From Phycisphaerae bacterium (GTDB taxonomy: Bacteria > Planctomycetota > Phycisphaerae > Tepidisphaerales > Tepidisphaeraceae), in assembly GCA_030448225.1 (NCBI GenBank), contig JAUJNJ010000055.1:15564-41731 (forward strand): a stretch of DNA of 26,168 nucleotides, read 5' to 3'. A program made the translations under genes and the position numbers. Shown here one piece after another: positions 919-25,601 of this stretch. Each line of letters begins with the position of its first letter. The stretch's first letter is position 1. The notes beneath the pieces were generated by a model, which was not told the origin of the DNA, did no database searches, and saw only the letters and a program-made list of their open reading frames with translations.

Positions 919-995
919 GCACCTGATAGCCTCGGGCGGAAGCCCGAGGTCTTCCACGGAGGACCGACGGTCTTCCGCCCGCGGCTATCAGATGC
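919..995. repeat. 24-nt inverted repeat in murC-murB gap
   Basis: Arms at 919-942 and 972-995 are reverse complements with two mismatches; the core is TGATAGC followed by CTCGGGCGGAAG, against CTTCCGCCCG followed by CGGCTATCA. The left arm also contains a smaller hairpin (CTCGGGC at 931-937 with GCCCGAG at 942-948), so two folds compete. No U-tract follows, so a classical intrinsic terminator is not supported. The rest of 711-1106 shows no gene. Confidence 0.7.
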
Positions 996-1106
996 GCCCG
1001 GAGGGTTGACGGGGTCCGGGAGCTTTCGAGCCGGTGGATCATCCACCCCCAAACCCTGCGGGAGCACCTTGCCGCGCGGCAGCAGCAGCGACTCCCGCGC
1101 CGCACC

Positions 1107-2591
1107 TCAAGCGACGACGAGGTCGCGCCCGATCTGCCAGACGTCGCCGGCGCCCATGGTCACGACGAGGTCGCCGCCGCGCACCTCGCCGCGCAGGTAG
1201 TCGACGATCGAGTCGAACTGCGGCAGGTGACGCGCCCGCTGGCCGTTGGCGACGACGCGGCCCACGAGGTCTTCCGCGTGCACGCTCGACCGCTCGGCCT
1301 CGCTGTCGCGCACGAAGTAGATGTCGGGCACGATCGTCTCGTCGGCGGCGGCGAAGCTCGTGGCGAAGTCGTTCAGCAGGAACCGCGTGCGGCTGTGCTG
1401 GTGCGGCTGGAAGACGCACAGCAGCCGGCCCGGCTGGTAGCGCTCGCGCAGCGCCTTGAGCGTGGCGCGGATCTCGGTGGGGTGGTGGCCGTAGTCGTCG
1501 ACGACCGTCGCCCCGTTGTAGCGGCCCATCTCGGTCATCCGCCGGTCGACGCCGGTGAACGCGCCGATCGCGTCGGCGGCGTCGGACGGGTCGACGCCGC
1601 ACGCCGCGCAGGCGGCGACCGCGGCGGTCGCGTTGAACAGGTTGTGCTCGCCCGGGACCGACATCCGCAGCGTCGCGACCTGCCGCCCGTTGTGCAGCAC
1701 GTGCCCGCGGGGGCACCCGTGCTCGATGCCGGCCATCCGCGTGCTCCACGTCGCCTCGCGGTCGAGCGCGACCCACTCGACGCGCGTCGCCAGCCCGGCG
1801 ACCGCCTCGCCGACGCGCGCGTCCTGGCCGTTGGCGATGATCAGCCCGTCGGTGGGCACGAGGCGGAGGAACGTGCGGAACGAGCCGACGATCTCCTCGA
1901 TGCCGCTGTAGCAGTCGAGGTGGTCCTCCTCGATGTTCGTCACGATCGCGACGCGCGGGTAGAGCGCGTGGAAGCTGTGGTCGAACTCGCACGCCTCGGC
2001 GACGAACGCCTTGCCGCCGCCCGAGCGGCTCCCGCCGCCGCCGAGCTGGGGGACGGTGCCGCCGATGACGAAGCTCGGGTCGGCGCCGCAGCGGATCAGC
2101 GCGTAGCTGATCATCGCCGACGTCGTCGACTTGCCGTGCGTCCCCGCGACGGCCACGCCGTACCGCTCCTGCATCACGAGGCCGAGCAGCTCGGCGTACT
2201 TCACGACGCGCAGTCCGTGGCGGCGGGCGGCGAGGTACTCGGGGTTGTCGTCCTTCACCGCGGCGGTGCGGACCACGAGGTCGACGCCGGGGAACAGTTG
2301 CTGGCCGCTCTGGTCGCGGGTGATCGTGGCGCCGTGCTTCGTGAGGTCGAACGTCTGCGGGTTGGGGCTGGGCTCCGAGCCGCTGACGAACGCGCCGCAG
2401 TCGAGCAGCATGCGGGCCAGCCCGCTCATCCCCGACCCGCCGATGCCGATGAAGTGGACCCGCCGGCCGGCGAAGCGGCTGGCGGTGGCGTTGTACGGGA
2501 ACGATTTACCGAGCGGCGCCGGCGCGGCGGCGCCGCCGGCGGGGGCGGCGACACGCGAATCCGTTCGCGACTCGCTCAAGGCATTTTCCAT
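1107..2591 (-). CDS. murC: UDP-N-acetylmuramate--L-alanine ligase MurC
   Basis: MurC adds the first residue, L-alanine, to UDP-MurNAc using ATP. The 494-residue product is intact. The Rossmann motif GIGGSGMSGLA (residues 49-59) binds UDP-MurNAc, the P-loop GTHGKST (150-156) binds ATP, NIEEDHLD (219-226) contains metal/ligand contacts, GEHNLFN (314-320) and DDYGHHPTEI (365-374) are typical of MurC. About 38 Ala/Pro/Ser-rich residues precede the Rossmann fold, longer than in most relatives. The ATG at 2591 follows an A/T-rich stretch with no recognisable Shine-Dalgarno sequence. The gene lies between murG, from which it is separated by a heptamer repeat array, and murB. It carries no frameshift, unlike both neighbours. 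Confidence 0.97.
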   Translation of the reverse strand: MENALSESRTDSRVAAPAGGAAAPAPLGKSFPYNATASRFAGRRVHFIGIGGSGMSGLARMLLDCGAFVSGSEPSPNPQTFDLTKHGATITRDQSGQQLFPGVDLVVRTAAVKDDNPEYLAARRHGLRVVKYAELLGLVMQERYGVAVAGTHGKSTTSAMISYALIRCGADPSFVIGGTVPQLGGGGSRSGGGKAFVAEACEFDHSFHALYPRVAIVTNIEEDHLDCYSGIEEIVGSFRTFLRLVPTDGLIIANGQDARVGEAVAGLATRVEWVALDREATWSTRMAGIEHGCPRGHVLHNGRQVATLRMSVPGEHNLFNATAAVAACAACGVDPSDAADAIGAFTGVDRRMTEMGRYNGATVVDDYGHHPTEIRATLKALRERYQPGRLLCVFQPHQHSRTRFLLNDFATSFAAADETIVPDIYFVRDSEAERSSVHAEDLVGRVVANGQRARHLPQFDSIVDYLRGEVRGGDLVVTMGAGDVWQIGRDLVVA

Positions 2592-2630
2592 TGAAAAAGG
2601 AAAAATGCCGCAACGCCGCCTATATTTTCT

Positions 2631-2700
2631 TACGCACTACGCACTACGCACTACGCACTACGCACTACGCACTACGCACTACGCACTACGCACTACGCCC
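2631..2700. repeat. Heptanucleotide tandem array (TACGCAC)n
   Basis: Nine perfect copies of TACGCAC run from 2631 to 2693, followed by a tenth with one change (TACGCCC, 2694-2700). On the minus strand the unit reads GTGCGTA, and because seven is not a multiple of three every reading frame meets a TAG within 21 bases. The murG reading frame enters the array and takes its stop codon there (2679-2681). No spacers separate the units, so it is not a CRISPR array. Short tandem heptamers of this kind are known from cyanobacteria as STRR repeats; the comparison is only by form. Confidence 0.95.
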
Positions 2701-3833
2701 TGCATTCCGTTCCCCATCATTCCCGTCACGACCTTCGCCACCGCCCCGGCGGCGTCGGGCTTGCCGAGGGCCTTGGCGGCGTCGGCCATGCGCGGCGGCG
2801 GTCGAGGTCGTAGAGCAACGACTGCAGTACGGGCCGCAGCTTGTCGGCGTTCGCGCGGCGATCCTTTTCGTCGTCGACCAGCACCGCCGCCCCCGCGTCG
2901 CTCAACACCTTGGCGTTCAGCCGCTGGTGCTGGTCCTTGTGGAACGGGTAGGGCATCAGGATCGACGGCACGCCGCACGCGGTCAGCTCCGCGCAGCTGC
3001 TGGCGCCGGGCGCTCAAGCGCCAGGTCGGCCACGGACCACACGTCCGCCATCCCGGGCGTGAAGTCGATGATGCGGGCGGCGACCGATAGGTCGCGGTAG
3101 CCGTCGCGGACGCTGTCGGCATGTTCGCGGCCGGTCAGGGTGCAGGATCTGCCTGACCCGCGGAGCGTCACGTCGCTCAGCATCGTCGAGCGCAGCCTCG
3201 TTCACGGTGCGCGCCGAGCGACGCGCCGGTGACGACGAGCGTGTGCAGCATCGGGTCGAGCCCGAAGGCGCTCGTCGCGGCCTCGCGGGCGGGTAGCTCG
3301 CGGATGTCGGTGCGGATCGGGCAGCCGGTGACGTGCAGCTTGTTCCGCTCGGAGCCCGAGACGTAGTCGGCCGTCACGTCGAACTGGCAGCAGATCGCGC
3401 CGACGTGCTGCATGAGGTACTTGTTCGCCTTGCCCGGGATGACGTCGGGGTTGAGCACCGACGTGGGGATCTTCCGCTGCGCCGCCACCCGCACCGCCAC
3501 GCCCGCCGCATAGCCGCCGAGGCCGAGGACGGCGACGGGCCGGCGCTGCTTGAAGATGCCGCGGACGAGGTCCTTCGTCTCGCGCCAGCTCTTCCAGAAC
3601 TTCAGCAGCCCGCCGACGTTCGTGACCGACGGGAGCGGGAGGACCGGCTGGGGGATGAACTCGAACCCGGTCGACTCGAGGATGACGCGGTCGATCTCGC
3701 GGTTCGTGCAGAGGAAGACCGGCTTCACGTCCGGCACGAGGTGCCGCATCGCTTCGGCCACCGCGATGCCCGGGTAGAGGTGGCCGCCGGTGCCGCCGCC
3801 GGCGAGGAAGAGGGTGTGGGGAGAGTCGGGCAT
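2679..3833 (-). CDS. murG: UDP-GlcNAc:lipid I N-acetylglucosaminyltransferase MurG (frameshifted C-terminal half)
   Basis: MurG transfers GlcNAc onto lipid I at the inner membrane face to make lipid II. The N-terminal half is clean: FLAGGGTGGHLYPGIAVAEA holds the family glycine-rich loop, then GLGGYAAGVAV and a LVVTGASLGA start of the second domain. From about 3210 downwards the frame changes at least five times (near 3207, 3170-3130, 3010 and 2790), yet the order of motifs is kept: TVNEAALDD, ILH-LTGREHADSVRDGY, FTPGMADVWSVADLALER, then GVPSILMPYPFHKDQHQRLN for UDP-GlcNAc binding. At 3207 a CG pair appears lost from a GCGCGC run. The ATG at 3833 is preferred over TTG at 3845. The last codons and the stop lie inside the heptamer array. 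I expect the real gene to be intact. Confidence 0.88.
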
Positions 3834-3882
3834 CGTTTGATTCAATACAGTGGTCGGGAACGGGGCGACGTTGTTCGCTTCG

Positions 3883-4087
3883 CGTGACGAGTGACGAGTG
3901 GTGCGTGAAGCGGCTCGGAACGACGCGTCACTTAGGTGGACCGATCAGCCTTGCACCTGGTCTGCGGTGCGCTCCGTTTCGTGCCTCGCGTCCTTCCGAA
4001 GCGCCGTTCGTCGAACGGCGGCTAAACGAGACGGGCACGCACCCCGGTACGCCGGACGTATTCACGGATCACTCGTCACTCGTCACG
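3883..4087. repeat. Perfect 18-nt inverted repeat between ftsW and murG
   Basis: CGTGACGAGTGACGAGTG at 3883-3900 is the exact reverse complement of 4070-4087. Each arm is itself a short direct repeat of the word GTGACGA. The 169-base interior has no gene but holds a small hairpin, GCCGTTCG at 4003-4010 with CGAACGGC at 4012-4019. The element fills most of the 299-base ftsW-murG gap. Confidence 0.85.
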
Positions 4088-4132
4088 TCTCGATCGCATC
4101 ATTTCTCGCTCGCCACGGAGCACCCATCGCCC

Positions 4133-5338
4133 TCACGCCGCGGGCCGGAGTAGGGTCGTCGCCGCCATGTCCGGTTGTTCCGGCAACGTGTACGACGGCT
4201 CCAGCGCGACCTCCTCATCATGGCCGAACCGGGTGATGCTGTACAAGAGCCCCAGCGCGCCGCAGGTGATGATCAGCCCGCTGCCGCCGGCGCTGACGAG
4301 CGGCAGCGACAGGCCCTTGGTGGGCACGCTCACCGTCGCCACCGCCATGTTGATGACGGCCTGCAGCCCGATCATCGACGCGATGCCGAACGCGAGCAGC
4401 CGGCCGAACGTGTCGCGCTTCTGGCGGATCACCTGCCAGGCGACGAACAGGATGCCGAGGTACAGCGCGGCCGTCAGCATCGCGCCGAAGATGCCGAGTT
4501 CCTCGCAGATCACGGCGAAGATGAAGTCGGTCGTGTCCTCCGGCAGGTAGCCGAGCTTCTGCACGCCGTTGCCGAGGCCGCGCCCGAACAAACCGCCGGT
4601 CGAGAAGCTCAGGAGGCTCTGGATCATGTGATACCCCTCGCCCTGAGGCGAGGCGTAGGGGTCGACGAACGCGGTCATCCGGCGCCAGCGATACTCCTCG
4701 CTCATCACGAACCACAGCGCCGCCGCCAGCGCCGGCGGGATCACCACCGCCAGGTGCCACAGCTTCACCCGGCCGGCGAGCAGCATCGTGACCGAGCACA
4801 GGCCGATCAGGGCCGCGGTACCGAAGTCTTGGATGACGACGAGGAGGCAAATCATCCCGACCGGGACGAGCGTGACGAAGAACCCGCCGAAGCGGTCGAG
4901 GTTCACCGGCCGGCGGGCGAGCCACCAGGCGAGGAAGAGGACCGTCCCCCACTTGGCCAGTTCTGACGGCTGCACCTGGATCGGCCCGAGCAGGATCCAC
5001 CGCCGCGCACCGTTGACCTCCCGCCCGATCCCGGGGACGAGTACCAGCACGCACGTCAGCGCCGCCGCCGCCAGCGCCCACAGGGCCGGCGACCGCCAGA
5101 GCGGGGCGTCGCGGCGGGCGAGGTTCTTGTAGTTCAGGTTTCCCGCCCCGAAGAACATCGCGACCGCCAGGCCGGCGTAGACCAGGTGCTTGGTGCCGCG
5201 CTGCGACCATTCCCACCCGACCTGGCCGGTCACGTTCGACGCCGCCGACTGCACCATCAGCACGCCGAGGCACAGCAGCGACAACACGCACACCGCCAGC
5301 ACGTCGCGAAGCCGCATCCGGTAGATCGAAGCTTCCAT
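4133..5338 (-). CDS. ftsW: Lipid II polymerase / cell division protein FtsW (SEDS family)
   Basis: FtsW is a multi-pass inner-membrane glycosyltransferase that polymerises lipid II for septal peptidoglycan. The 401-residue product is intact and shows about ten hydrophobic segments. Conserved SEDS stretches are present: NGARRWI (109-115) with IQVQPSELAKW (120-130), QDFGTA (170-175), the extracellular loop EDTTDFIFAVICEELG (267-282) whose Asp271 fits the essential aspartate of the family, and LPLVSAGGSG (345-354). ATG at 5338 gives the expected short cytoplasmic N-terminus; Met8 is an alternative. It follows mraY by 123 bases where murD would normally lie. RodA is less likely because of the mur context. 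Confidence 0.93.
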   Translation of the reverse strand: MEASIYRMRLRDVLAVCVLSLLCLGVLMVQSAASNVTGQVGWEWSQRGTKHLVYAGLAVAMFFGAGNLNYKNLARRDAPLWRSPALWALAAAALTCVLVLVPGIGREVNGARRWILLGPIQVQPSELAKWGTVLFLAWWLARRPVNLDRFGGFFVTLVPVGMICLLVVIQDFGTAALIGLCSVTMLLAGRVKLWHLAVVIPPALAAALWFVMSEEYRWRRMTAFVDPYASPQGEGYHMIQSLLSFSTGGLFGRGLGNGVQKLGYLPEDTTDFIFAVICEELGIFGAMLTAALYLGILFVAWQVIRQKRDTFGRLLAFGIASMIGLQAVINMAVATVSVPTKGLSLPLVSAGGSGLIITCGALGLLYSITRFGHDEEVALEPSYTLPEQPDMAATTLLRPAA

Positions 5339-5461
5339 TACGGCTGTTATCGGGCTTGGCCGGAACGCGGCTTGAGGGAAGGTCCGGAGGGCGGGAATCG
5401 GTGGAGAGGATGCGGGGCGCCGACGGTTAAGATCGGCAGGTTGACTGTCCGTCAGCCAGTC

Positions 5462-6625
5462 CTACCGCAGCTTCACCGTCGCCAGCGCCATCGCCGCCAG
5501 CATCGCGCCGATGAGCCAGAAGCGGACGACGACCTGCGCCTCGGTCCACCCCTTCTTCTGGAAGTGGTGGTGGGCGGGGGCCATCAGGAAGACCCGGCGG
5601 CCCTGGCCGAAGCGGATGCGGGTGTACTTGAAGTAGCTCACCTGGATCAGGACCGAGATCGCCTCGAAGACGAAGATGCCGCCGACGAGGAAGAGCATCA
5701 GTTCCTGGCGGATCACGATCGAGAGGTAGCCGATCAGGCCGCCGAGCGCGAGGGAGCCGGTGTCGCCCATGAAGACGCGGGCGGGGTTGCAGTTGTACCA
5801 GAGGAACCCGAGGCAGGCCCCGGTGATCGCGCCGGCGACGACCGCCATCTGCCCGGTCGAGCCCGCGCCGTTGGGGCCCTCGATGAAGGGGAGGAGCAGG
5901 TACGCCGCCAGCTCTCGGATGCCGACGAAGAGGGAGAGGACGAGGAACGCGAAGCCGACGAGCGCCATGCACCCGGCGGCGAGGCCGTCGAGGCCGTCGG
6001 TGAGGTTGACGGCGTTGGACGTGCCGGTCATCACGAGCGTGCCGATCAGCATGTACAGCCAGAGCGGGAGCGCGACCCAGTAGTTCTTCACGAACGGGAA
6101 GTAGAAGCGCGTGGCCTCGGGGATGTTCTGGCCGTAGCGGTAGGTGAAGTACGTGAGGATCAGCGCCAGGCCGATCTGGAACGCGAGCTTCTCGCGGCCG
6201 GTCAGGCCCTGCCGGCTGCCGGTGCCGCGGCGGGCGGCGGTGAGCTTCAGCCAGTCGTCGGTCGCGCCGACCCCGCCGAGCCACACGAGGCAGACCATCG
6301 CCATGTTGACGTAGAAGTTGCCGAGGTCCGCCAGCAGGAGGGTCGTCGTCGCGATCGACGCGATGATGAGCGCCCCGCCCATCGTCGGCGTCCCCTTCTT
6401 CCCCTCCATCATCTTGTCGACGTCGGCCTGCCCGAAGTTCGGGTTGTCGCCGATCTTCTGCAGCCGCAGCCACGCGATGAACCGCGGCCCCAGCGCCACG
6501 ACGAGCACGAAGCTCACCAGCACGGCCACCGCCGACTGGAACGTGACCATGTTGAAGACGCGCAAGAAGCCGGCGCCGTGGTCTTCGAGCCAGGGGAGGT
6601 AGTGCTTGACGAGCAGGAAGAGCAT
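5462..6625 (-). CDS. mraY: Phospho-N-acetylmuramoyl-pentapeptide transferase MraY
   Basis: MraY transfers phospho-MurNAc-pentapeptide to undecaprenyl phosphate, making lipid I. From the ATG at 6625 the product is 387 residues with about ten membrane segments. Key motifs are all present: KKGTPTMGG (76-84), TDDW (122-125, the DD pair), NAVNLTDGLDGLAAG (204-218), MGDTGS (286-291) and the APAHHHFQKKGW loop (349-360) with its three histidines. The open frame continues 47 codons upstream, but that part is low-complexity and MLFLLVKHYLPWL is a normal MraY beginning. No strong Shine-Dalgarno motif is visible. It lies 253 bases downstream of murF; that gap (6626-6878) shows no gene. Confidence 0.96.
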   Translation of the reverse strand: MLFLLVKHYLPWLEDHGAGFLRVFNMVTFQSAVAVLVSFVLVVALGPRFIAWLRLQKIGDNPNFGQADVDKMMEGKKGTPTMGGALIIASIATTTLLLADLGNFYVNMAMVCLVWLGGVGATDDWLKLTAARRGTGSRQGLTGREKLAFQIGLALILTYFTYRYGQNIPEATRFYFPFVKNYWVALPLWLYMLIGTLVMTGTSNAVNLTDGLDGLAAGCMALVGFAFLVLSLFVGIRELAAYLLLPFIEGPNGAGSTGQMAVVAGAITGACLGFLWYNCNPARVFMGDTGSLALGGLIGYLSIVIRQELMLFLVGGIFVFEAISVLIQVSYFKYTRIRFGQGRRVFLMAPAHHHFQKKGWTEAQVVVRFWLIGAMLAAMALATVKLR

Positions 6626-6878
6626 GAGGTGTCGCGGCGTAACGTGTCGTGCGCCCGTGCGCCGAATCTCCGGGTCGCCCGCCCGGGGGCGAAGGGCCCT
6701 TCCACCCGCGCGATTGCCGCGCGGCGTCGCCGCGTCGGCGGGCGTGAGCGCGGACGCGCGAGGCAACGGTCGACGACGACCCGGCCCTCGGCGCGCGCAC
6801 GAGGATCACACGGGGGCGCGGCCCTCTTTACCCCAAGTCATCGTCATCGGCAAACGGGGTCGAAAGGGGAAGCGCGGT

Positions 6879-8499: not shown

Positions 8500-8538
8500 C
8501 AGCGACGATCCCGCGCATCCCGGCGCCAGGTCACCCGC

Positions 8539-10020
8539 TCACGCCGCGGCGGCGGACTGCGCCTGCAGCGCCCGCGTGGCCTCCTCAACGTCGTCGAAGC
8601 GGTGCCGGTGCCCGTCGATCTCCTGGTAGTTCTCGTGCCCCTTGCCCGCGATCAGCACGACGTCGCCCGGTTCCGCGTCGGCGATGATCCGACCGATCGC
8701 GGCCCGGCGGTCCGCCTCGATCACGGCCGACCGGGCGCCGGCGGCGGAGAAGCCCTTCCTCACGTCTTCCAGGATCGCGACCGGGTCCTCGGTGCGCGGG
8801 TTGTCGCTCGTGAGGTAGACCGCGTGGGCGTGCCGCTCGGCCGTGCGGGCCATGCGCGGCCGCTTCGTGCGGTCGCGGTCGCCGCCGCAGCCGAACAGGA
8901 CGCGGAGCTTGCCGCGCGTCAGCGGGCGCAGGGCGGTCAACACGTTCTCCAGCGCGTCGTCGGTGTGGGCGTAATCGACCAGCACCGAGAACGGCTGCCC
9001 GGCCCGCACCGCCTGGAGGCGGCCAGGGGCGCCGTGCGCGCGTCGCGCAGGCCGTTGGCGAGTTGCTGGGCGGTCAGGCCGAACGTCTCGCCGACGAGGG
9101 CGGCGGCGGCCAGCGCGTTCTCGACGTTGTGCCGCCCGAGCATCGGCAGGTTCACCTCGGCCTTGCCGTCGGGCGTGTGGAGCGTGAACGTGCACCCGTC
9201 GCTCGTGTACGCCGCGCCGCTGGCGCGGTAGTCGGCGGCCTTGCCGAAGCCGAATCGGATGACGCGGCCCTGGCAGTCCCGCAGGACGCGCTCGGACCAC
9301 TTGTCGTCGCCGTTGACCACCGCGACGGCCGACGCGTCGAGCGACGCGAACAGGCGGGCCTTGGCGGCGGCGTAGTTGTCCATCGTCTTGTGGTAGTCGA
9401 GGTGGTCGCCGCTGAGGTTCGTGAACGCCGCCCCCGCGAAGCCGACGCCCGCGACGCGGCCCTGGTCGAGGGCGTGGCTCGAGACCTCGATCGCGGCGCG
9501 CGGCACCCCTTGTCGCGCATCGACGCGAGCAGGTCGGCGATCTCGCACGCCGGGCGTGGTCATCGTCGCCTCGTGGCGGGTGCGGCCGTCGTCCACCTCG
9601 ACCGTGCCGATCATCCCGCAGCGGTTGTTCGCCTTGGCCAGCAGGTGGCGGGCGAGGTAGGTGACGGTCGTCTTGCCGTTGGTCCCGGTCACGCCCAGCA
9701 CGCACCTTGCTGCTCGGCTGGCCGTGGCGGAGGTTGGCCAGGAGCGACGACACGACCGCCGCGTCCTTCACGACCACGTGCGGCAGGCCCCCCTTGGCCG
9801 CGCCGGCGGCGAGGCCCTGCGACAGGATCGCGACCGCGCCGCGGGGCGCGGGCGTCTTCAACGAACTTCGCGCCGTCGGCGTTGAGGCCGGGGCGGGCGA
9901 TGAACAGGTCGCCGGGCCGGACCTGGCGGCTGTCCTCGCGGACGCCGCCGATCTCGACGTTCGGGATGCCGGTGAGCGGAAGCTGGGGTCGAACTGCTTG
10001 AGGAGGCTGTGCAGGAGCAT
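8539..10020 (-). CDS. murE: UDP-MurNAc-L-Ala-D-Glu:meso-diaminopimelate ligase MurE (frameshifted)
   Basis: MurE adds the third residue of the stem peptide. The C-terminal third is clean: VLVDYAHTDDALENVL, FGCGGDRDRTKRP, then TSDNPRTEDP, whose DNPR signature marks meso-DAP specificity in this family, and GKGHENYQ. Upstream, the frame breaks at about 9028, 9513, 9545, 9705, 9855 and 9990, while motifs stay in order: GGVREDSRQVRPGDLF, GVTGTNGKTTVTY (P-loop), EVSSHALDQGRVAG, NLSGDHLDYH, MLGRHNVENALAA. Breaks are explained by loss of one base in C or G runs (9990, 9513) or of a CG/GT pair (9545, 9705, 9855). The ATG at 10020, beginning MLLHSLL, was chosen over ATG at 10059; GGGAAGGGA lies just upstream. 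It is the first gene of the visible cluster. Confidence 0.9.
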   Translation of the reverse strand: MLLHSLLKQFDPSFRSPASRTSRSAASARTAARSGPATCSSPAPASTPTARSSLKTPAPRGAVAILSQGLAAGAAKGGLPHVVVKDAAVVSSLLANLRHGQPSSKVRAGRDRDQRQDDRHLPRPPPAGQGEQPLRDDRHGRGGRRPHPPRGDDDHARRARSPTCSRRCATRGAARRDRGLEPRPRPGPRRGRRLRGGGVHEPQRRPPRLPQDDGQLRRRQGPPVRVARRVGRRGGQRRRQVVRARPAGLPGPRHPIRLRQGRRLPRQRRGVHERRVHVHAPHARRQGRGEPADARAAQRRERAGRRRPRRRDVRPDRPATRQRPARRAHGAPGRLQAVRAGQPFSVLVDYAHTDDALENVLTALRPLTRGKLRVLFGCGGDRDRTKRPRMARTAERHAHAVYLTSDNPRTEDPVAILEDVRKGFSAAGARSAVIEADRRAAIGRIIADAEPGDVVLIAGKGHENYQEIDGHRHRFDDVEEATRALQAQSAAAA

Positions 10021-10021
10021 G

Positions 10022-10062
10022 TGGGATATCCCTTCCCCGTGGGCGTGCCGGGTCGGCACGCC
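10022..10062 (-). promoter_or_regulatory. Palindrome and hairpin upstream of murE
   Basis: GGGATATCCC at 10023-10032 is a perfect 10-bp palindrome 2-12 bases before the murE start and overlaps its likely ribosome-binding region. Directly upstream, GGCGTGCC (10042-10049) pairs with GGCACGCC (10055-10062) around a five-base loop. Together they could form an operator or leader structure that limits murE translation. This is inference from symmetry only; the rest of 10063-10260 shows no gene and no convincing promoter. Confidence 0.3.
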
Positions 10063-12633: not shown

Positions 12634-12732
12634 CATCCCGAGGAGCGACAGCGACGAGGGATCTCGGGGTGGAGTAGTGCGCGTCTACCCAACCCGAGAT
12701 CCCTCGGGTCGCTACCGCTCCCCTCGGGATGT
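12634..12732. repeat. Imperfect inverted repeat, about 35-40 nt arms
   Basis: The segment 12634-12668 (CATCCCGAGG ... GATCTCGGG) pairs with 12693-12732 (CCCGAGATCC ... CTCGGGATG) with a few mismatches and gaps. Each arm combines the words CCCGAGG, AGCGACAGCGAC and GAGGGATCTCGGG. It lies alone between the remnant at 12.5 kb and the tRNA terminator; the rest of 12549-12869 has no gene. Similar phrases are widespread in bacterial intergenic DNA (from memory), so it may be a dispersed repeat family. Confidence 0.7.
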
Positions 12733-14461: not shown

Positions 14462-14612
14462 CTCCCTCTCCCCCGTACGCGGGGGAGAGGGCAGGGGTGA
14501 GGGGCGGAGCCGGACGTGGGCGCGGCCGAAGGAACCGGGACGTCGGGGAAGTTGCGGTTTACGCCGCTCGGCCCCTCACCCTAACCCTCTCCCCCGCGTA
14601 CAGGGGAGAGGG
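14462..14612. repeat. Inverted pair of 42-43 nt phrases between the two HtrA-like genes
   Basis: The phrase at 14462-14504 and that at about 14571-14612 are near reverse complements. Each contains its own hairpin, for example CCTCTCCCCC at 14465-14474 with GGGGGAGAGG at 14481-14490 around GTACGC. The words CCCTCTCC and GGGTGAGGGG recur. A looser pair of GGATGA words follows (14633-14647 and 14698-14730). The whole 300-base gap 14433-14732 consists of these repeats plus about 70 bases of plain sequence; no gene is seen. Confidence 0.75.
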
Positions 14613-16601: not shown

Positions 16602-16753
16602 GAACCACGGGGACACGGAGACACGGAGTAAAGACGAGGACGGAAGATGGAGGATGGCAGACGGAGATGCTCTGCGCATCACGCTTCCTCCAGCCTTGCA
16701 TCCGTAGATGCTGCCCTCCGTCTTCTCTCCGTGTCTCCGTGACTCCGTGGTTC
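16602..16753. repeat. 27-nt inverted repeat of ACGGAG words
   Basis: Arms at 16602-16628 (GAACCACGGGGACACGGAGA...) and 16727-16753 are reverse complements with two mismatches. Each arm is three or four iterations of the word ACACGGAG. The 98-base interior has no gene. The element lies in the leader of the RdgC-like gene. Confidence 0.85.
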
Positions 16754-16837: not shown

Positions 16838-18028
16838 ATGGGTTTCGCTTCCGGTTCCGTGTCGTTCCGCCGTTTCGCCGTCGTCGGCAAGAATCCCAAG
16901 CTCCCGGACCAGGCGCTGATCGACAAGCTGCAAGCCAACGCGCTGCGCCCCGGCGAGATCGGCGTGCCGGAGGAGGTGGAGTACGGGTGGAGCGGCGGGC
17001 GGCACGTGCTCGACGGCAACTTCAGCTTCGAGCACAACGTCTTCGCCGACGCGATGCACTTCGCGCTGCGCGTCGACACCAACAAGGTGCCCGGCGAGCT
17101 GAAGAAGGCCTACGAGATGATGGAGGAGGAGGCCGTCGCCGCCGCCAACCCGTCGGGGTTCATCAGCAAGGGGCAGAAGCAGGAGGTGAAGGAGTCGATC
17201 CGCCAGAAGGTGGAGGACGAGATGCGCACCGGCCGCTTCCGCCGCAGCAAGCTGCTGCCGGTGCTGTGGGACGTGCCGGGCGCGGTCGTCTACTGCTCGG
17301 CCGGCGGGGCGGCGTTCGAGAAGCTCGCCGAGCTGTTCGAGCGCACGTTCGACCTGCAACTCGTCCCGCTGTCGGCCGGCTCGCTCGCGCTGCGCCTGCT
17401 CGAGCCGCGCGGCCGGCGGCGCGACTACGAGGACCTCAAGCCGACACGCTTCGTCCCCGGCCCCGAGGGCGAGAGCGTCTACCCCGAATACCCGTGGGTC
17501 GCCAAGGGCCCCGAGCCGAAGGACTTCCTCGGCAACGAGTTCCTCCTGTGGCTCTGGCACGAGGCCGACGCCAAGACGAGCATCGTCCATACCGAGCAGG
17601 CCGGCGAGGTCACGGTCTACTTCGACCGCAGCCTCGACCTCGACTGCGCGTACGGCCAGACCGGCAAGGACAACCTCCGCGGCGACGGCCCGAGCCGCGG
17701 CCCCGAGGCCCGCGACGCGCTGCGCACCGGCAAGCTGCCGCGGAAGGCCGGCCTCGTGCTCGACGCCGACCGCCAGCAGTACACGCTGACGCTCAACCCC
17801 GAAGCGCTCGCCTTCGGCAGCGCGCAGCTCCCCGACGTCGAGGACGCCGACAGCGCCCGCACGCTCTTCGAGGAGCGCATCGGCCTGCTCCGCGACCTCT
17901 GCCGCGCGACCGACGCGCTGTTCGACACGTTCCTGAAAACCCGCGCCAGCTCCGCCTGGGAAGGCTACGTCGGCCAACTCCGCCGCTGGATCATGCAGGT
18001 CCCCAAAACCGAAACCGCCGCGGCGTGA
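16838..18028 (+). CDS. RdgC-like protein (putative recombination-associated protein)
   Basis: The 396-residue product resembles RdgC, a DNA-binding ring protein that modulates RecA-dependent recombination in proteobacteria. Supporting features are the N-terminal FRRFAVVGKNPKLPDQALID strand-helix, the KVPGELKKAYEMMEEE segment, the lysine/glutamate-rich KQEVKESIRQKVEDEM helix and LWDVPGAVVYCSAGGAAFEK before ELFERTFDLQLVPLS. The protein is about 90 residues longer than E. coli RdgC; the extra part is C-terminal. GGAG lies eight bases before the ATG. The last 28 codons are duplicated just downstream. The similarity is by memory of family pattern and not a computed alignment; a planctomycete-specific relative with another role is possible. 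Confidence 0.6.
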   Translation: MGFASGSVSFRRFAVVGKNPKLPDQALIDKLQANALRPGEIGVPEEVEYGWSGGRHVLDGNFSFEHNVFADAMHFALRVDTNKVPGELKKAYEMMEEEAVAAANPSGFISKGQKQEVKESIRQKVEDEMRTGRFRRSKLLPVLWDVPGAVVYCSAGGAAFEKLAELFERTFDLQLVPLSAGSLALRLLEPRGRRRDYEDLKPTRFVPGPEGESVYPEYPWVAKGPEPKDFLGNEFLLWLWHEADAKTSIVHTEQAGEVTVYFDRSLDLDCAYGQTGKDNLRGDGPSRGPEARDALRTGKLPRKAGLVLDADRQQYTLTLNPEALAFGSAQLPDVEDADSARTLFEERIGLLRDLCRATDALFDTFLKTRASSAWEGYVGQLRRWIMQVPKTETAAA

Positions 18029-18136
18029 GGGGGCGGTGGCGCCAGTTCCGCCTGGGAAGGCTACGTCGGCCAACTCCGCCGCTGGATCATGCAAGTCCCC
18101 AAAACCGAAACCGCCGCGGCGTGAGCGGCGGTGGGG
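17945..18136 (+). repeat. 96-bp tandem duplication of the 3' end of the RdgC-like gene
   Basis: The segment from 17945 repeats from 18041, an offset of 96 bases. About 84 bases up to the stop codons (18026-18028 and 18122-18124) are identical except for two substitutions, AGC/AGT and CAG/CAA, both silent. Because 96 is 32 codons, the second copy is in frame with the first across the first TGA. Confidence 0.95.
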
Positions 18137-18689: not shown

Positions 18690-18941
18690 ATGACAGCCGA
18701 CACGCTCCGCGAAATTCTCCGGCGTAAGCCGTTCGAGCCGTTCCGCGTCGTCATGAGCAGCGGCGAAAGCTACAACGTGATGCACCCGGAGATGGCACTT
18801 GTCAGCGCCCGCTCGCTAATCCTCGCCCTTCCGGATCCGACGGAGCCGGAGGGGGAACGCCTCGCGTTCTGCTCATACCTGCATGTGGCCCACATCGAAG
18901 TGCTTCGCCCGTCTGACGCGACGGAACGACGTGCGAGCTGA
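18690..18941 (+). CDS. Small 'PFRPF'-family protein, paralogue of the previous gene
   Basis: This 83-residue protein starts MTADTLREILRRKPFEPFRV and shares with its neighbour the layout LR-x-PF-PF, a short Gly/Ser turn (MSSGESYNVMHPEMALVS), a strand LILALPDP and a C-terminal strand HIEVLRPSD. Function is unknown. It is intact. There is no Shine-Dalgarno motif; TACTAT lies six bases before the ATG, again compatible with leaderless transcription. The gap before it (18446-18689) shows no feature. Confidence 0.7.
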   Translation: MTADTLREILRRKPFEPFRVVMSSGESYNVMHPEMALVSARSLILALPDPTEPEGERLAFCSYLHVAHIEVLRPSDATERRAS

Positions 18942-19016
18942 CGGCTTACGAAGCGGCGACGCCGCCGCCCACAATTGATTGCAGGGTTCCTCAGCCTTTT
19001 GCCACCAGCCGGCGAA

Positions 19017-20447: not shown

Positions 20448-20583
20448 GGCGAGCGATTGTACGGGGTTACACGTCGAAGAGGACGGGCAGGAAAGCGCGG
20501 GTGCGCGCGCGGTGTTGCTGTGCGTCTATTCTGTCTCTGCCGCGGACGGGTGTGTCGCTCGGTGTGCGTTCCGGGCGATGCGT

Positions 20584-21415
20584 TCAACTTCCGAGTTCGA
20601 TGTTGTTCTGCTTCAGGATCGCCTTCAGCGCGTCGGCCGCCACCTTGAACAGGTCAGGGCCCGTCTCGCCGTGCGAGTGGCCGGTGACCTTCAGGTGCGG
20701 CTCGAGGCTGACGAACCCGCGGTAGCCGCTGGCGTAAGCGTCCGGCACGATCGTCGGGATGTCGCCGTCGCCCTGGCCGGCGGGGACGACGTTGCCCGAG
20801 CCGGTCTGCGCGTCCTTGATGCGGATGTGCGCGGTGTACGGCTTGAGCAGCTTCCAATTGTCGAGCGCTCGCCGACCTGCACGAAATTGGCGAAGTCGGA
20901 ACGCGCCGCAGCTTCGGCGAGTCCACCGACCGCATCAGGTCGAGGCACCGCCGGCCGACGTCGCCGAAGATCCCCTTCTCGTTCTCGTGCACGAGCGCGA
21001 CCGGCCGGTCGCGCAGGAGTTCCACCTTCCGGCGGAAGCGGTCGACCACCTCGTCGCGGTGCGGGTCGATCGGGCCTTCCCCTCGCCGCCGGCCGGGTAG
21101 TAGCTGAACACGCGGATGAAGGGCGCGCCGAAGAACTCGGCGGTGTCGACCGCGATCTTGAACCGCTCGAGGTGCTCGCCCCACGGCCGGTCGATCGCGA
21201 CCTTGCCGATCGGCGACGCGACGCTGATCACGCCCAGGCCGTTGTCGCGCGCTTCGCGCGGATCTCATCGCGCCGGGCCGGGTCGAAGTCGAGCACGTTG
21301 ACCTTGTCGACCGAGCCGCAGCTCGAAGTGCGTGACGCCGTTCTCCGCGGCAGACGCGGATCTGCTCGTCGAGGTTCGGCGAAATCTCGTCGGCGAATGC
21401 GGACAGTTTCAGCAT
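20584..21415 (-). CDS. Sugar phosphate isomerase/epimerase-family TIM-barrel protein (frameshifted)
   Basis: A protein of about 275 residues can be pieced together from all three frames: MLKLSAFADEISPNLDEQIRV, SVDKVNVLDFDPARRDEIRA, VISVASPIGKVAIDRPWGEH, FKIAVDTAEFFGAPFIRVFS, VALVHENEKGIFGDVG, FANFVQVGE, HIRIKDAQTGSGN and a tail ending NNIELGS with stop at 20584-20586. These fit the xylose-isomerase-like TIM barrel family (AP_endonuc_2), with metal-binding Glu/His sites in VHENEKG and the HIRIKDA strand. At least five indels break it. Substrate cannot be told. It is in the same direction as the RnfC-like gene, separated by 136 bases. Confidence 0.7.
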
Positions 21416-21511
21416 GTTCGTCGGCTCCCGGTTCGCGATGGGCGGTCATGGTCGGCCACGCGCGGCGGTCGTCAAGCGGACGACGCGGACGACCGTCGGC
21501 AGGAGTCTCGT

Positions 21512-21595
21512 TAGCCACCGATGGGGCACCGATGGTCACCGATGAAGACAGAGCAGAAGCATAATCGGTGACCATCGGTGCCCCATCGGTGGCTA
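21512..21595. repeat. Perfect 32-nt inverted repeat (CACCGATGG words)
   Basis: Positions 21512-21543 and 21564-21595 are exact reverse complements around a 20-base loop. Each arm is three iterations of a ten- to eleven-base word around CACCGATGG. It lies between divergently transcribed genes (epimerase-like and aminotransferase), so a terminator role is unlikely. A cruciform or processed RNA hairpin is possible. Confidence 0.95.
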
Positions 21596-21620
21596 CGACT
21601 CGGCTACGCGCGGGTGCGCG

Positions 21621-22874
21621 GTGGAACGGTTGCGGGTTCTCCGTTACCGTCCTCGCGTGCCCCACGATGACCCGCAGATCCCGCCGCCCCCGCCGCCGCT
21701 TCGGGCGGGGTTGCTCGACGAGTTCCTGCTCGAGCCGGGGGTGACGTTCCTCAACCACGGGTCGTTCAGCGCGGTGCCGCGGGCGGTGTTCGAGCGGCAG
21801 ACGCAGTGGCGGCTGCGCGTCGAACGCGCCGGTCGAGACGCTCGTCCGGCAGCTCGACGGGCTGCTCGACGAGGCGAAGCGCGTCGTCGGCGTGGCTCTG
21901 GGGCGCGGCCGGCGGACTTCGGGTTCGTCACCAACGCGACCGAGGGCGTGAACACGGTCCTCCGCGCCTCCGCGCTGCAATCGGGCGACGAGATGCTCAC
22001 GACGACCCACGTCTACCCTGCCGTGCGAAAGGCGATGCACCACGTCGCCGCGCGGCGGGCGCGCAACGGTGCGCGAGATCGACGTGCCGCTGCCCGTCGC
22101 GTCGGCGGCGACGATCGTCGACGCGGTGACGGCGGGCTGCACGCCCCGCACGCGGCTCGTCGTGATCGATCACGTCACCTCGCCGACCCGGGCTGGTCTT
22201 CCCGGCCGGGGCGGTCGTGGCGGCGTGCCGGGCGCGGGGTGTCGACGTGCTGGTCGACGGGGCGCACGCGCCCGGGCATGCTGCCGCTCGACGTCATGTG
22301 GCGATCGGCCGCGGCGTACTACGCGGGCAACCTGCACAAGTGGACGTGCGCGCCCGAAGGGCGGGGTTCCTCTGGGTCCGGCCGGACCGGCAGGCGGGCG
22401 CACCGCTCGTCGTCAGCCACCGGTGGGGCAGGGGATCGACCGCGAGTTCGCCTGGCAGGGCACGCGCGACGTCGCCGCGTGGCTCACCGTGCCGGCGGCG
22501 ATCGCGTGGATGGACCATCTCGGCGGGGCGCGGGAAAGCGCGAGCACAACGGGGCGATGGCCGTCTGGGCGCACGCGATGCTCGCCCGGCGTCTCGGCGT
22601 GGCGATGCTCAGCCCCGCCGATGGGTCGCTCCTCGGGTCGATGGCCGCCGCGCCTCCCCGCGCCGCTGGACGCGATGACCGACCCGGCGGCCATGGCGTT
22701 CCAGCAGCGCAGTTGTACGACCAGTACCGCGTCGAGGTGCCGCTGTTCCCGTGGGCCGGCCGGTGGCTGTTCCGCGTGTCGTGCCAGGTCTACAACGTGC
22801 CCGATGACGCCGAGCGACTGGGCGACGTGCTGGCGGACGCCGCCCGCGCCGCGACGGCCGGCGGGGCGACCTGA
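21621..22874 (+). CDS. Class V aminotransferase (isopenicillin N epimerase-like), frameshifted
   Basis: PLP-dependent fold-type I enzymes of this group include isopenicillin N epimerase, cysteine desulfurases and related lyases. Readable in order over three frames: VTFLNHGSFSAVPRAVFERQ, LVRQLDGLLDEAKRVVG, FGFVTNATEGVNTVL, TTTHVYPAVRKAMHHVAAR, TRLVVIDHVTSP, VDVLVDGAHAPG (the Asp contacting PLP), YYAGNLHKWTCAP (PLP lysine), FAWQGTRDVAAWLTVPAAI and VEVPLFPWAGRWLFRVSCQVYN. At least eight indels break the frame, both gains and losses. The start is uncertain: GTG at 21621 opens the frame, and GTG at 21658 gives a shorter N-terminus. The natural substrate cannot be inferred. Confidence 0.72.
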   Translation: MERLRVLRYRPRVPHDDPQIPPPPPPLRAGLLDEFLLEPGVTFLNHGSFSAVPRAVFERQTQWRLRVERAGRDARPAARRAARRGEARRRRGSGARPADFGFVTNATEGVNTVLRASALQSGDEMLTTTHVYPAVRKAMHHVAARRARNGARDRRAAARRVGGDDRRRGDGGLHAPHAARRDRSRHLADPGWSSRPGRSWRRAGRGVSTCWSTGRTRPGMLPLDVMWRSAAAYYAGNLHKWTCAPEGRGSSGSGRTGRRAHRSSSATGGAGDRPRVRLAGHARRRRVAHRAGGDRVDGPSRRGAGKREHNGAMAVWAHAMLARRLGVAMLSPADGSLLGSMAAAPPRAAGRDDRPGGHGVPAAQLYDQYRVEVPLFPWAGRWLFRVSCQVYNVPDDAERLGDVLADAARAATAGGAT

Positions 22875-22972
22875 TCGGCCGTCGCCGGCAGATGAAACAT
22901 TTCGCCCCGCGCGTGGTAAAGATTACGGGAGCGATCTTTTCCACGGTTTCCGATTGCTGCGCCCGACGCCAT

Positions 22973-22994
22973 CCCGCCCGCCGAAGCGGGCGGG
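22973..22994. repeat. 9-bp GC hairpin with UUCG-type loop
   Basis: CCCGCCCGC (22973-22981) pairs with GCGGGCGGG (22986-22994). Read on the minus strand the loop is TTCG closed by C-G, an exceptionally stable tetraloop. No U-tract follows on either side. The surrounding gap 22875-23081 has no gene. Confidence 0.7.
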
Positions 22995-23081
22995 CCGCCG
23001 TCGATGCCGGCGGCGCGGCAGCGCGTGGCTGATCCGCCCGATCCGATTCACTCTGGCACCGGACAACGCGAGGAACACACC

Positions 23082-24211
23082 GTGACGCGACCTTCCCCTC
23101 TCCCGATCTCCCCTGTTTCGGTTCGGGCCCTTGGCGTTGCTGGCCGTGATCGCGGGCCTGCTCGCGCCTGTTGCGGGCGTCGCGCGGGCGGCGGACGATC
23201 AAGCGTCGTGGCTCGTGTTCGAGGGGAAGGACGGTCCGGGCAAGGGGAAGCACGTCGTGCTGATCAGCGGCGACGAGGAGTACCTCTCGAAGAGGCGATG
23301 CCGCAACTCGGCAAGATGCTGGCGAAGCACCACGGGTTCAAGGCCACCGTCCTGTTCCCGATCGACAAGAAGACGGGCAAGATCGACCCCAACGTGCGCA
23401 TATCCCCGGCCTGGAGGCGCCGAAGTCGGCCGACCTGATGGTGATCGCCACGCGCTTCCGCGACCTGCCGGACGACCAGATGCAGCACGTCGTCGACTAC
23501 CTCGACGCCGGGAAGCCGGTGATCGGCCTGCGGACGGCGACGCACGCGTTCAACATCAAGGGCGACAAGAAGTTCGCCAGGTACTCGTTCAACTACAACA
23601 AGGACGACTGCAAGGAAGGCTTCCCCGCAGGTGCTCGGCGAGACGTGGGTGAGCCACCACGGCAAGCACAAGGTGCAGAGCACGCGCGGCATCGTGGCCG
23701 AGGGCGCGAAGGATCACCCGATCCTCCGCGGCATCAAGAGAACTCGATCTGGGGCCCGACCGACGTCTACGGCATCCGCAACCTGCCGGACAACGCCAAG
23801 CCACTGGTGATGGGCCAGGTGCTGGTCGGCATGAAGCCTGGACGACAAGCCGCTGGAGGGGGAGAAGAACAACCCGATGATGCCCGTCGCGCGGACGCGC
23901 ACGTACAAGGGCGCGCTGATGGCAAGGAGGGGCGGGTCTTCACCACGACGATGGGCGCCGCGACCGACATGCCCGCCGGAGGGCACCCGCCGGATGCTGG
24001 TGAACGCCGTCTACTGGGCCGCCGGCCTCGAGGACAAGATCCTGTCCGAGGGGGCGAAGGTCGACGTCGTCGGCCCGTTCAGCCCACCGCCTACGGGTTC
24101 GACGACTTCGTGAAGGACAAGTCGCCGAAGGACTACGTGGCGGGGGGCGGAGGATCTGCTGGTTGGGGGAAAGTGAGCAGGTATCGGGCGGGGCGCCGGA
24201 ATGGCCAATGA
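23082..24211 (+). CDS. Secreted ThuA-domain protein (frameshifted)
   Basis: Joined across frames, this is a protein of about 375 residues with a signal peptide (LALLAVIAGLLAPVAGVARA) and a ThuA-like glutamine-amidotransferase fold: KHVVLISGDEEYLSEEAMPQ, DLMVIATRFRDLPDDQMQHV, DAGKPVIGLRTATHAF, WVSHHGKHK, AKDHPILRGIKENSIWGPTD, KPLVMGQVLVGMKP, NPMMPVARTRTYKGALMAKE, RVFTTTMGAA, MLVNAVYWAAGLEDKIL. Such proteins are common in planctomycetes and often linked to polysaccharide breakdown; activity is unknown. AGGA lies seven bases before the GTG at 23082. About ten single-base indels occur, for example loss of a base at about 23293, 23405, 23740 and 23925 and gain at about 23630 and 23985. The stop (24209-24211) lies inside the following repeat. 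Confidence 0.78.
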
Positions 24212-24510
24212 CGAAGCCCCAATGACCAACAAATGACCAAGTCCTAATGACCAATGAAGACATGACGCGTTTCGGTATGCGGTGACCTCGGCCGCGCCGG
24301 AGCGATGAACACCTGGAGTCGCCGGTGGCGTCTGCGGATAACCGCCGACGCCACCGGCGACTTTGCTTGGCCGATGCCCCATCCCAACCCTTGGTCATTG
24401 AATCATTGGTCATTTGTTGGCCATTGGGGCTTGGTCATTTCCCCTTCCCGTGCTTCGTCATTAGTCATTGGTCATTGATTGGTCATTGAGCCTTGGTCAT
24501 TGGCCATTCC
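24199..24510. repeat. Inverted clusters of (GGTCATT)n words around a hairpin
   Basis: The left cluster (24199-24262) contains three AATGACC words plus variants; the right cluster (about 24390-24510) contains six GGTCATT words plus four one-base variants. About 35 bases of each, around TGGTCATTTGTTGG and CATTGGGGCTT, pair with few mismatches. The stop codon of the ThuA-domain gene falls inside the left cluster. No gene is visible between the clusters; a separate hairpin lies at 24317-24362. Confidence 0.85.
24317..24362 (+). terminator. Possible terminator hairpin after ThuA-domain gene
   Basis: AGTCGCCGGTGGCGTC (24317-24332) pairs perfectly with 24347-24362, and the 14-base loop contains a further four-pair stem (GCGG/CCGC). 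TTTGCTT follows, a short U-rich run. The position, about 105 bases after the stop and before the argB promoter, fits a transcription end. The U-tract is weak, so termination is inferred. Confidence 0.5.
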
Positions 24511-24538
24511 CGTTCCTCGTCCCCGCGCCCGCCGATCT

Positions 24539-24567
24539 TTGACACCCCGCGCCGCGCCTCCTAAACT
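24539..24567 (+). promoter_or_regulatory. Strong sigma-70-like promoter for argB
   Basis: TTGACA (24539-24544), a perfect -35 hexamer, is 17 bases from TAAACT (24562-24567), a four-of-six -10. Start of transcription would be near 24574, leaving a leader of about 33 bases before the argB ATG at 24607. No arginine-operator sequence was recognised. Confidence 0.65.
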
Positions 24568-24606
24568 CTCCGCTTTTCGTTTTCCCCCGCGCGCGGACGC
24601 TTGCCC

Positions 24607-25497
24607 ATGCTTCACCCGGCGATCACCCAAGCCGCCTCCAAGGCCACCGGCCTGGTCGAGGCGCTGTCGTACATCCAGCGGTTCCACGACAAGGTCGTGG
24701 TCGTGAAGGTCGGCGGCTCGATCATGGACGACGAGGGGGCGCTGTCGAACATCCTGACCGACATCGTCTTCATGAACTACGTCGGCATGCAGCCGGTCCT
24801 CGTGCACGGCGGCGGGAAGGCGATCAACGACGCGATGGAGAAGGCCGGCCTCGTCCCGCAGATGGTCATGGGCCGCCGCTACACCGACGAGCGCACGCTC
24901 GCGATCGCCGAGCACGTGCTGTGTAACCAGGTGAACCGGTTCATCGTGAACTTCATCCAGGCGCAGGGGTGCGAGGCGATGGGCCTGCACAGCCTCAGCA
25001 GCGTTGTGCTCTTCGCCGACAAGACCTACCTCCAGGGCCCCGACGGGCGGCGGATCGACCTCGGCTACGTCGGCGACGTGCGGACCGTCAACGCCCGGCT
25101 GCTCCAACTGCTCGTGCAGGCCGACTCGATCCCCTGCATCGCGACGATCGCCCGCGACCCGGCCGGCGGGAAGCTCAACGTCAACGCCGACACCGCCGCC
25201 GGCGCCGTCGCCGCCGCCATGAAGGCCGAGAAGCTCGTCGTCGTCTCCGACACCCACGGCATCCGCTCCAACCCCGACGACCCGGCGTCGAACGTCAGCC
25301 ACCTGACCGTCGCGCAAATCGACGAGATGGTGAAGTCCGGCGTGATCTCCAAGGGGATGCTCCCCAAGGTCGAAGCCTGCGTTCAAGCCCTGCAGGGCGG
25401 CGTCGCCAAGACGCACATCATCGACGGCCGCATCCCCCACGCGCTGTTGCTGGAGATTTATACTGAGGCCGGGATCGGCACTGAAATTGTGCTCTGA
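24607..25497 (+). CDS. argB: Acetylglutamate kinase ArgB
   Basis: ArgB phosphorylates N-acetyl-L-glutamate with ATP, the second step of arginine synthesis, in the cytoplasm. The 296-residue product is intact and of normal length. VVVVKVGGSIM (about 31-41) and LVHGGGKAINDAM are the nucleotide and substrate loops; VNADTAAGAVAAAMKAEKLV and VVSDTHGI form the ATP-binding C-terminal lobe; GGVAKTHIIDGRIPHALL is the typical end. ATG at 24607 was chosen; a TTG six bases upstream is in frame. It has its own good promoter and precedes argF, with which it probably forms an operon. No argC, argJ or argD is visible; the aminotransferase upstream is not ArgD-like. Confidence 0.96.
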   Translation: MLHPAITQAASKATGLVEALSYIQRFHDKVVVVKVGGSIMDDEGALSNILTDIVFMNYVGMQPVLVHGGGKAINDAMEKAGLVPQMVMGRRYTDERTLAIAEHVLCNQVNRFIVNFIQAQGCEAMGLHSLSSVVLFADKTYLQGPDGRRIDLGYVGDVRTVNARLLQLLVQADSIPCIATIARDPAGGKLNVNADTAAGAVAAAMKAEKLVVVSDTHGIRSNPDDPASNVSHLTVAQIDEMVKSGVISKGMLPKVEACVQALQGGVAKTHIIDGRIPHALLLEIYTEAGIGTEIVL

Positions 25498-25601
25498 TTT
25501 TGGATTTTGGATTGCGGATTTTGGATTGAAAGGCGCGGGCATCGCGAGCCGTTTCGGTCACCCAATCTGCAATCCAAAATCCGCAATCCAAAATCCAAAA
25601 T
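25497..25601. repeat. Perfect 32-nt inverted repeat filling the argB-argF gap
   Basis: 25497-25528 and 25570-25601 are exact reverse complements with a 41-base loop. The arms iterate the word ATTTTGG/GGATTTTGGATTG. The first arm starts on the last base of the argB stop codon, and the second ends on the T of the argF ATG. The right arm also continues into more CAATC words outside the perfect pairing (25563-25569). Confidence 0.97.

Follow-up and report, generated by a model that had tools for sequence, protein, structure and literature searches.

Inverted word arrays in the intergenic gaps of a Phycisphaerae bacterium are probably shells, without their genes, of miniature mobile elements of two families

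Introduction

Why do so many intergenic gaps in one stretch of planctomycete DNA carry an array of short reiterated words, each gap with a word of its own? The stretch, here called the window, comprises 26,168 bases (69% G+C) of a Phycisphaerae bacterium (Planctomycetota). A preliminary description of its sequence had suggested that the arrays stem from one generating process rather than from copies of one element. Our best reading is that the window holds shells of the miniature mobile elements of two gene families together with REPIN-like hairpins, and not the work of one new generating enzyme. We put the probability that its five inverted word arrays are such gene-less shells at about 0.7. 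One family is characterised by a GxxExxY gene and the other by a gene for a four-helix-bundle protein. A perfect direct array at 2631 is probably also a shell of these families, and the sites at 919, 12634 and 14464 belong to separate hairpin families.

Results

A search for word arms at longer distances, made over the loci then collected, gave five cases with a gap of more than 300 nt. Four of these gaps were 438–530 nt long, with one small open reading frame (ORF) in each: GxxExxY genes (loci L186 and L017), a four-helix-bundle gene (L008) and a 157-aa ORF (L186). In the fifth gap (L008 18221–19181, 847 nt) no small gene was recognised by eye, and no family search was run.

In the order sampled here, PF13366 (GxxExxY) has 42 matches in 21 of 26 genomes and PF05635 (four-helix bundle) has 87 matches in 22 of 26. 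For each match fetched we took the best ungapped inverted repeat joining the 350 nt on its left to the 350 nt on its right, with a threshold score of at least 16. Inverted arms bracketed 35 of 40 testable GxxExxY loci (25/29 and 10/11; all 42 matches were fetched) and 57 of 78 four-helix loci (24/30 and 33/48; 78 of the 87 matches were fetched). In the same geometry, random positions of genome G014 had inverted arms in 3 of 600 cases.

The words of the arms were compared at loci with a score of at least 15, and an arm pair was called motif type when each arm had two or more C[AG]CN[AG]A[GT] words. Motif arms were found at 26 of 27 GxxExxY loci versus 1 of 26 four-helix loci (Fisher 7.5e-13). 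Arms of period 7 were found at none of the 27 GxxExxY loci versus 19 of 26 four-helix loci (Fisher 5.5e-9). This motif was defined after inspecting these arms, and held-out loci were tested separately. The held-out GxxExxY loci of the order were of the motif type in 9 of 10 cases with no heptads, and the held-out four-helix loci were heptad in 28 of 34 cases and motif type in one of the 34. GxxExxY loci from Verrucomicrobia and other Planctomycetota carried the motif in 9 of 10 (14 tested). On cyanobacterial plasmids all nine four-helix loci were heptad (11 of 30 records were fetched, two being below threshold), with L328 and L329 among the nine representing the same insertion. Word type follows gene type with few exceptions, held-out loci included.

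The gene-bearing elements are discrete insertions in relatives, as indicated by empty sites. On Nostocales plasmids, two Trichormus records and Scytonema share a heptad element with a four-helix gene (L328). It is absent, at 97–98% identity, from records of Aulosira, Microchaete and Nostoc carneum (L334, L335, L341). A decayed copy is found at this first site in L336. The L328 junction can be read as a short duplication (TAAT or GTAAT). Another element (L344) lies on a plasmid of Nostoc sp. ATCC 53789; the corresponding site is empty in two plasmids related to it (L350, L351; ∼92%). The L344 junction reads as TTCT or TTCTA. Both duplication readings vary with the placement of the element end. 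The L345 element is absent from relatives L347 and L348, where ∼40 nt are replaced. At the same site L349 has a version that lacks the gene (arms 28 nt, spacer 163 nt). This gene-less derivative at an occupied site gives a view of a shell arising. For L330, L333 and L342 relatives without the gene were found, with junctions that are not clear. The GxxExxY element of L307 is missing in four relatives (78–83% identity), which have 14–25 nt in its place.

Some further loci extend the range of these elements. CACGGAG arms at L186 2779–3366 enclose the 157-aa ORF, which has no Pfam or NCBIfam match and is possibly a third kind of cargo. Two word-array pairs of G007 (L008 15383–15900 and 18221–19181) are located inside open frames of 1344 and 688 codons, as if tolerated within coding sequence; one of the two encloses a four-helix gene. 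The longest arms seen, ∼78 nt on a 6-nt step, bracket a four-helix gene in G027 (L293). In a type III-B CRISPR cluster on a plasmid of Picosynechococcus sp. PCC 7003 (L342), cas10 and cmr3 are separated by a four-helix gene that is not there in PCC 7002 pAQ6 (L352). At the GxxExxY site L304 (G048), a related genome (L322, G047) has the left arm in common, but the two differ in the interior, where other nested word arrays have taken its place.

In a repeat search of the window, eight of the nine places that had been described held inverted repeats (919–995, 3883–4087, 12655–12706, 14464–14612, 16602–16753, 21512–21595, 24186–24522 and 25497–25601). The ninth, 2631–2698, is a perfect direct array for which the search found no inverted partner. 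With a fixed detector (seed 10, gap at most 300, score at least 18) 7 inverted repeats were found in the window and none in any of 30 dinucleotide shuffles. The structures are far above chance, and, as first described, they have a common architecture with unrelated sequence and lie in gaps of differing gene orientation. The sites are listed below; no strand is assigned to the repeats. The RNA folding z-scores, obtained for six sites, ranged from -8.3 to -13.8.

16602..16753: inverted CACGGAG arrays, three per arm, spacer 82 nt; probable GxxExxY-type shell; RNA fold z -9.6
21512..21595: perfect inverted CACCGATG arrays, three per arm, arms 32 nt 100%, spacer 20 nt; RNA fold z -13.8
3883..4087: inverted heptad arrays, word GTGACGA, arms 27 nt 93%, spacer 151 nt; heptad (four-helix) type
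24198..24510: inverted heptad arrays, word AATGACC, arms 54 nt, spacer 205 nt; heptad type
25497..25601: perfect inverted heptad arrays, word ATTTTGG, arms 32 nt 100%; RNA fold z -8.3
2631..2698: perfect direct heptad array, TACGCAC x 9.7, overlapping the end of ORF 2679–3122
919..995: inverted pair like a doublet of repetitive extragenic palindromic (REP) units, hairpin arms 28 nt, 89%, TAGCC-hairpin layout; RNA fold z -8.8
12634..12732: long GC-rich hairpin GTCATCCCGAGG ... CCTCGGGATG, upstream of the tRNA-Phe gene; RNA fold z -8.9
14464..14612: CCCTCTCC-type hairpin-armed pair, arms 47 nt 89%; RNA fold z -10.1

By the word measures, 16602 and 21512 are of the GxxExxY type, with three C[AG]CN[AG]A[GT] words in each arm. 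Their spacers (82 and 20 nt) contain no GxxExxY gene. The sites at 3883, 24198 and 25497 have inverted arms of 7-nt-step words (period-7 identity 0.68–0.80 in the better arm) and are heptad, as is 2631. The spacers of the three inverted sites (151, 205 and 41 nt) are too short for a four-helix-bundle gene, so that we call these sites shells and not intact members. The remaining three sites are of neither type. The window holds at least three kinds of site. The claim that nearly all sites are pairs of arms made of an iterated 7–12 base word stands for the five inverted arrays and fails for 2631, which is direct only, and for the three hairpins.

Members of the same families were found outside the window. 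The 21512 arm has the frame of the GxxExxY arm of L251 (G022), with CACAGATG changed to CACCGATG in every copy, and the CACCGATG family also occupies the argB-argF gap of G017 (L091). At 24198 the word is AATGACC, which in G012 is found on both sides of a four-helix gene (L419). The spacer of 24198 itself contains a 21-bp hairpin (24317–24362, 95% paired), which is terminator-like or a nested element. An element akin to the 12634 hairpin, GTCATCCTGAGG ... CCTCAGGATGAC, is present in G014 (L207). The CCCTCTCC family of 14464 forms a cluster of six in G014, and L127 and L134 have nearly the same full arms.

We took a census of inverted repeats in G014, a closed 7.19-Mb genome from the order of relative G003, using 60 stretches of 20 kb (1.2 Mb). 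The 142 inverted repeats at a score of at least 17 were grouped in families. Some families have palindromic arms and are REP-doublet-like (GTAGGGTCCGCCTTGGCGGAC, a cluster of 14; GTGACACGGGCTTCCAGCCCGTG, 13; TATAGCCCAGGGC, 8), and others have word arms. Single linkage merged several families into the biggest cluster (38). After filtering, 32 gene-less word arrays remained; 16 had C[AG]CN[AG]A[GT] words and 13 were heptad. For the heptad shells the nearest element was L278, a four-helix element resident in G014 (rank 1 of 26). Within families the arms are conserved and the spacers mostly are not. Density varies by genome: G008 gave none in 78 kb (five contigs, chosen by number) and G003 one in 28 kb (five contigs). 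In G014 and G015, GTAGGGTCCGCCTTGGCGGACGCG arms are identical though the surrounding DNA barely aligns.

Taken with the loci above, the census lends no support to one generating process in place of element copies. Families recur at other loci and in other genomes, longer versions enclose one specific small gene whose type is matched by the word, and relatives have empty sites where gene-bearing copies are inserted. Each site of the window does have its own word, but these words recur at other loci and in other genomes.

The 919 site is an inverted pair of hairpin-forming units that resembles a REP doublet. It has CTCGGGCGGAAGCCCGAG in its left half and an inverted partner 21 nt on, and in its entirety it folds into one long hairpin. 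It is REPIN-like and would be moved by REP-associated tyrosine transposases (RAYTs). In relatives, arms of the TAGCC-hairpin kind flank Y1 genes (L144, L146 and L148), with a stem sequence other than that of 919.

An alternative is that all sites, the word arrays included, are REPIN-like and moved in trans by RAYT (Y1, HUH) transposases, with the GxxExxY and four-helix genes as captured passengers. Y1_Tnp is present in 26 of 26 genomes of the order, and by a hand count 18 of the 30 loci read have inverted arms around the Y1 match. Some of these arms correspond to dispersed families of the G014 census (for example TAGCCCAGGGCAACGCCCTGGG in L148), and the layout of an inverted pair with a variable spacer is alike. 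However, no word array brackets the Y1 gene at the 30 loci read, which are a minority of the order's Y1 matches. A lone CACGAAG pair near Y1 (L143) lies aside, and that Y1 gene has hairpin arms of its own. The arms of the word-array sites are iterated words and not the palindromic hairpins of REP units. Passenger status would also leave the match of word type to gene type unexplained. We consider this explanation unlikely.

The site at 25497–25601 fills the gap between two neighbouring genes, running from the stop codon of argB into the start codon of argF, and this gap was compared among genomes.

24601..25497, + strand: argB (amino acid kinase), left neighbour
25600..26168, + strand, continuing past the window end: argF (carbamoyltransferase), right neighbour

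Of 24 loci, 21 had a readable gap (the others were L228, L229 and L233). A lenient scan at a score of at least 10, without shuffle control, gave an inverted repeat in 9 of the 21, the window included; L089 and L090 scored only 11. Eight of the nine have word-like arms that differ in their words; the arms of the ninth (L225) are hairpins. In L232, a tenth gap, the repeat is degenerate, as judged by eye. By script and eye, 11 of 21 have no repeat. The genomes compared are at family-level distance, and an insertion hot spot is not proven for this gap. At a second gap (L308), one of three genomes at ∼85% identity has CACGGATT arms with a GxxExxY gene, versus two different gene-less pairs in the others. 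Such gaps are entered repeatedly, or else the words of a resident element change together.

These two gaps, with different words in different genomes, are part of what survives of the proposed generating process, in which the arrays would be made on the spot by slippage, inversion or hairpin-templated repair. In favour of local generation, the arms mirror each other's irregularities (32/32 at both 25497 and 21512), and between the L251 and 21512 arms the same base differs in every word copy. From the two gaps and this arm difference, a concerted change of words in place or repeated use of one site is still needed. Against it, the same word and outer frame recur at unrelated loci, arms stand on both sides of genes, and sites are found empty. 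As the origin of the arrays we regard local generation as very unlikely. A local word-generating process may come second, working on elements already inserted.

The gap also bears on the view that the arrays are regulatory or structural sites under selection, either paired protein-binding sites or RNA hairpins that stabilise or end transcripts. This is how earlier authors read similar arrays in Geobacter (PMC2700814) and cyanobacteria (PMC2670836). The strong RNA folds fit this view, as does a repeat with differing words in 9 of 21 argB-argF gaps. Against it stand gene-bearing versions, empty sites at 97–98% identity and families at unrelated loci, and the repeat's presence varies, with more than half of the gaps lacking it. 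We find a regulatory origin quite improbable, and the host may make later use of the arrays.

We also examined the proteins of the two elements. For GxxExxY, 7,996 of the 8,000 candidates scored were relatives. D79, E89 and K91 are invariant in 52 aligned sequences, as expected of PD-(D/E)XK nucleases. The GxxExxY model (predicted local distance difference test score 92.4) is nearest to the structure SSO0001, which we take to be a Cas4-type nuclease; Hjc is one of many weaker matches. The four-helix protein is related to the solved structure 2gsc of Xanthomonas campestris and weakly to Avd of diversity-generating retroelements. To our knowledge neither of these widespread proteins has an established role.

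Besides the repeats, the window has a mur/ftsW cluster, an HtrA-like protease gene, argB, argF and tRNA-Phe. Its MraY is 59–68% identical to the nine best matches, all from metagenome-assembled genomes of Phycisphaerae. The 3883–4087 arrays are located between murG (start 3845) and ftsW (stop 4133). Compared with the intact relative L007, the murE region (8572–10053) matches in frames -3, -1 and -3 and the murG region (2792–3818) in frames -1, -3 and -2. These are frameshifts, from either assembly errors or broken genes. At 17943–18134 a 96-bp unit is present in two tandem copies, 95% matching.

Discussion

The window's inverted word arrays are best read as shells of elements that are seen intact elsewhere. 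An intact element is ∼400–600 bp long, with two inverted arms of two to five iterated words each and one small gene between them. C[AG]CN[AG]A[GT] words at 8–11-nt steps go with the GxxExxY gene of the PD-(D/E)XK nuclease family. Words at 7-nt steps go with the four-helix-bundle gene, which encodes the protein of 23S rRNA intervening sequences (IVSs). The element protein may bind the iterated words on the folded arms, in the manner of iterons. A nick or cut at the ends, made by GxxExxY in one family and by some partner in the other, could then lead to copying or moving into intergenic gaps. After gene loss, elements could be moved in trans or be left as fossils. The words may change jointly, through arms and repeats copying each other or through a shifting preference of the protein. 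The window's own copies would have moved in the same manner, judging from these relatives.

Several results weigh against reading the window arrays as shells. Neither gene was found among the 30 window ORFs scanned. Arms were missing at threshold from 5 of 40 GxxExxY and 21 of 78 four-helix loci, and the random-position control was drawn from one genome only. Four-helix genes in CACGAAG-type arms (L291, L384) break the rule of word and gene, and spacers mostly differ between copies of a family. For the GxxExxY-type shells of G014, the two resident elements with that gene that were tested came at ranks 9 and 11 of 27 and so were not nearest. At k=4, target-site duplications numbered 3 versus 4.3 expected at 35 GxxExxY loci, 3 versus 2.2 at 27 four-helix loci and 0 versus 3.4 at 29 shells. 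A duplication of fixed length would mark a transposon moved by a DDE-type transposase. With no excess over these 91 loci, the duplications of L328 and L344 may not be typical. Finally, insertion polymorphism was seen for gene-bearing elements of relatives and not for the window sites, which have no close relative for comparison, or for gene-less shells as such.

Paired word arrays are already known, whereas the link to genes and the empty sites are apparently new. In Geobacter metallireducens, paired tandem words on opposite strands (classes 1–4) were described in 2009 as putative sites of global regulators (PMC2700814). They share with the present elements the opposite-strand pairing and variable distance. 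Class 2, TCTCCGTS[Y], is the reverse complement of CACGGAG at window 16602, and class 4 is CCYTC-based, like 14464. They differ in being taken as IHF/HU-type sites, and the accessible text mentions neither an enclosed gene nor mobility. In cyanobacteria, short tandemly repeated repetitive sequences (STRRs) are intergenic 7-bp repeats capable of forming hairpins (PMC2670836), and TAACTGA arrays are intergenic 7-bp repeats that are almost only direct (PMC4679880). Both were reported as arrays of unknown or regulatory role, whereas here such arrays are linked to four-helix elements with empty sites.

REPINs, or REP doublets, are intergenic inverted pairs with a weakly conserved spacer and many copies per genome (PMC3116915), and Planctomycetes are mentioned for REP/RAYT systems (PMC3733652). 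This layout fits 919–995. REP arms differ from word arms in being palindromes, and at the 30 RAYT loci we found no word arrays around the gene.

The Coxiella IVS has tandem heptamers beside its S23p gene, and IVSs have been suggested to be mobile (PMC4990558). IVSs resemble our elements in having inverted arms as boundaries and a protein of the same family. They differ in location, since an IVS lies in 23S rRNA and our elements lie between protein genes or on plasmids. An Rfam scan of the window returned tRNA only, so that no site there is an IVS proper. Our elements also differ in having mostly heptads in both arms, and the window copies are gene-less. In our literature searches we found no link of such arrays to GxxExxY or, outside rRNA, to four-helix genes, and no description of their empty sites.

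As a tentative and wider proposal, which we hold as possible rather than probable, the GxxExxY and four-helix/S23 proteins would be movers or essential partners of two unrecognised element classes in several phyla, each reading its own words. The STRRs, the Geobacter sites, the planctomycete arrays and the IVSs would then be intact, gene-less or rRNA-resident forms of them.

Intergenic arrays of 7–9 base words in several bacterial groups have had no agreed origin (PMC2700814, PMC2670836, PMC4679880). A word type tied to a gene, together with empty sites, gives a testable origin for both the arrays and the genes, namely a mini-element of one gene and two arms. With it, the question of how ribosomal intervening sequences spread would open to experiments outside the ribosome.

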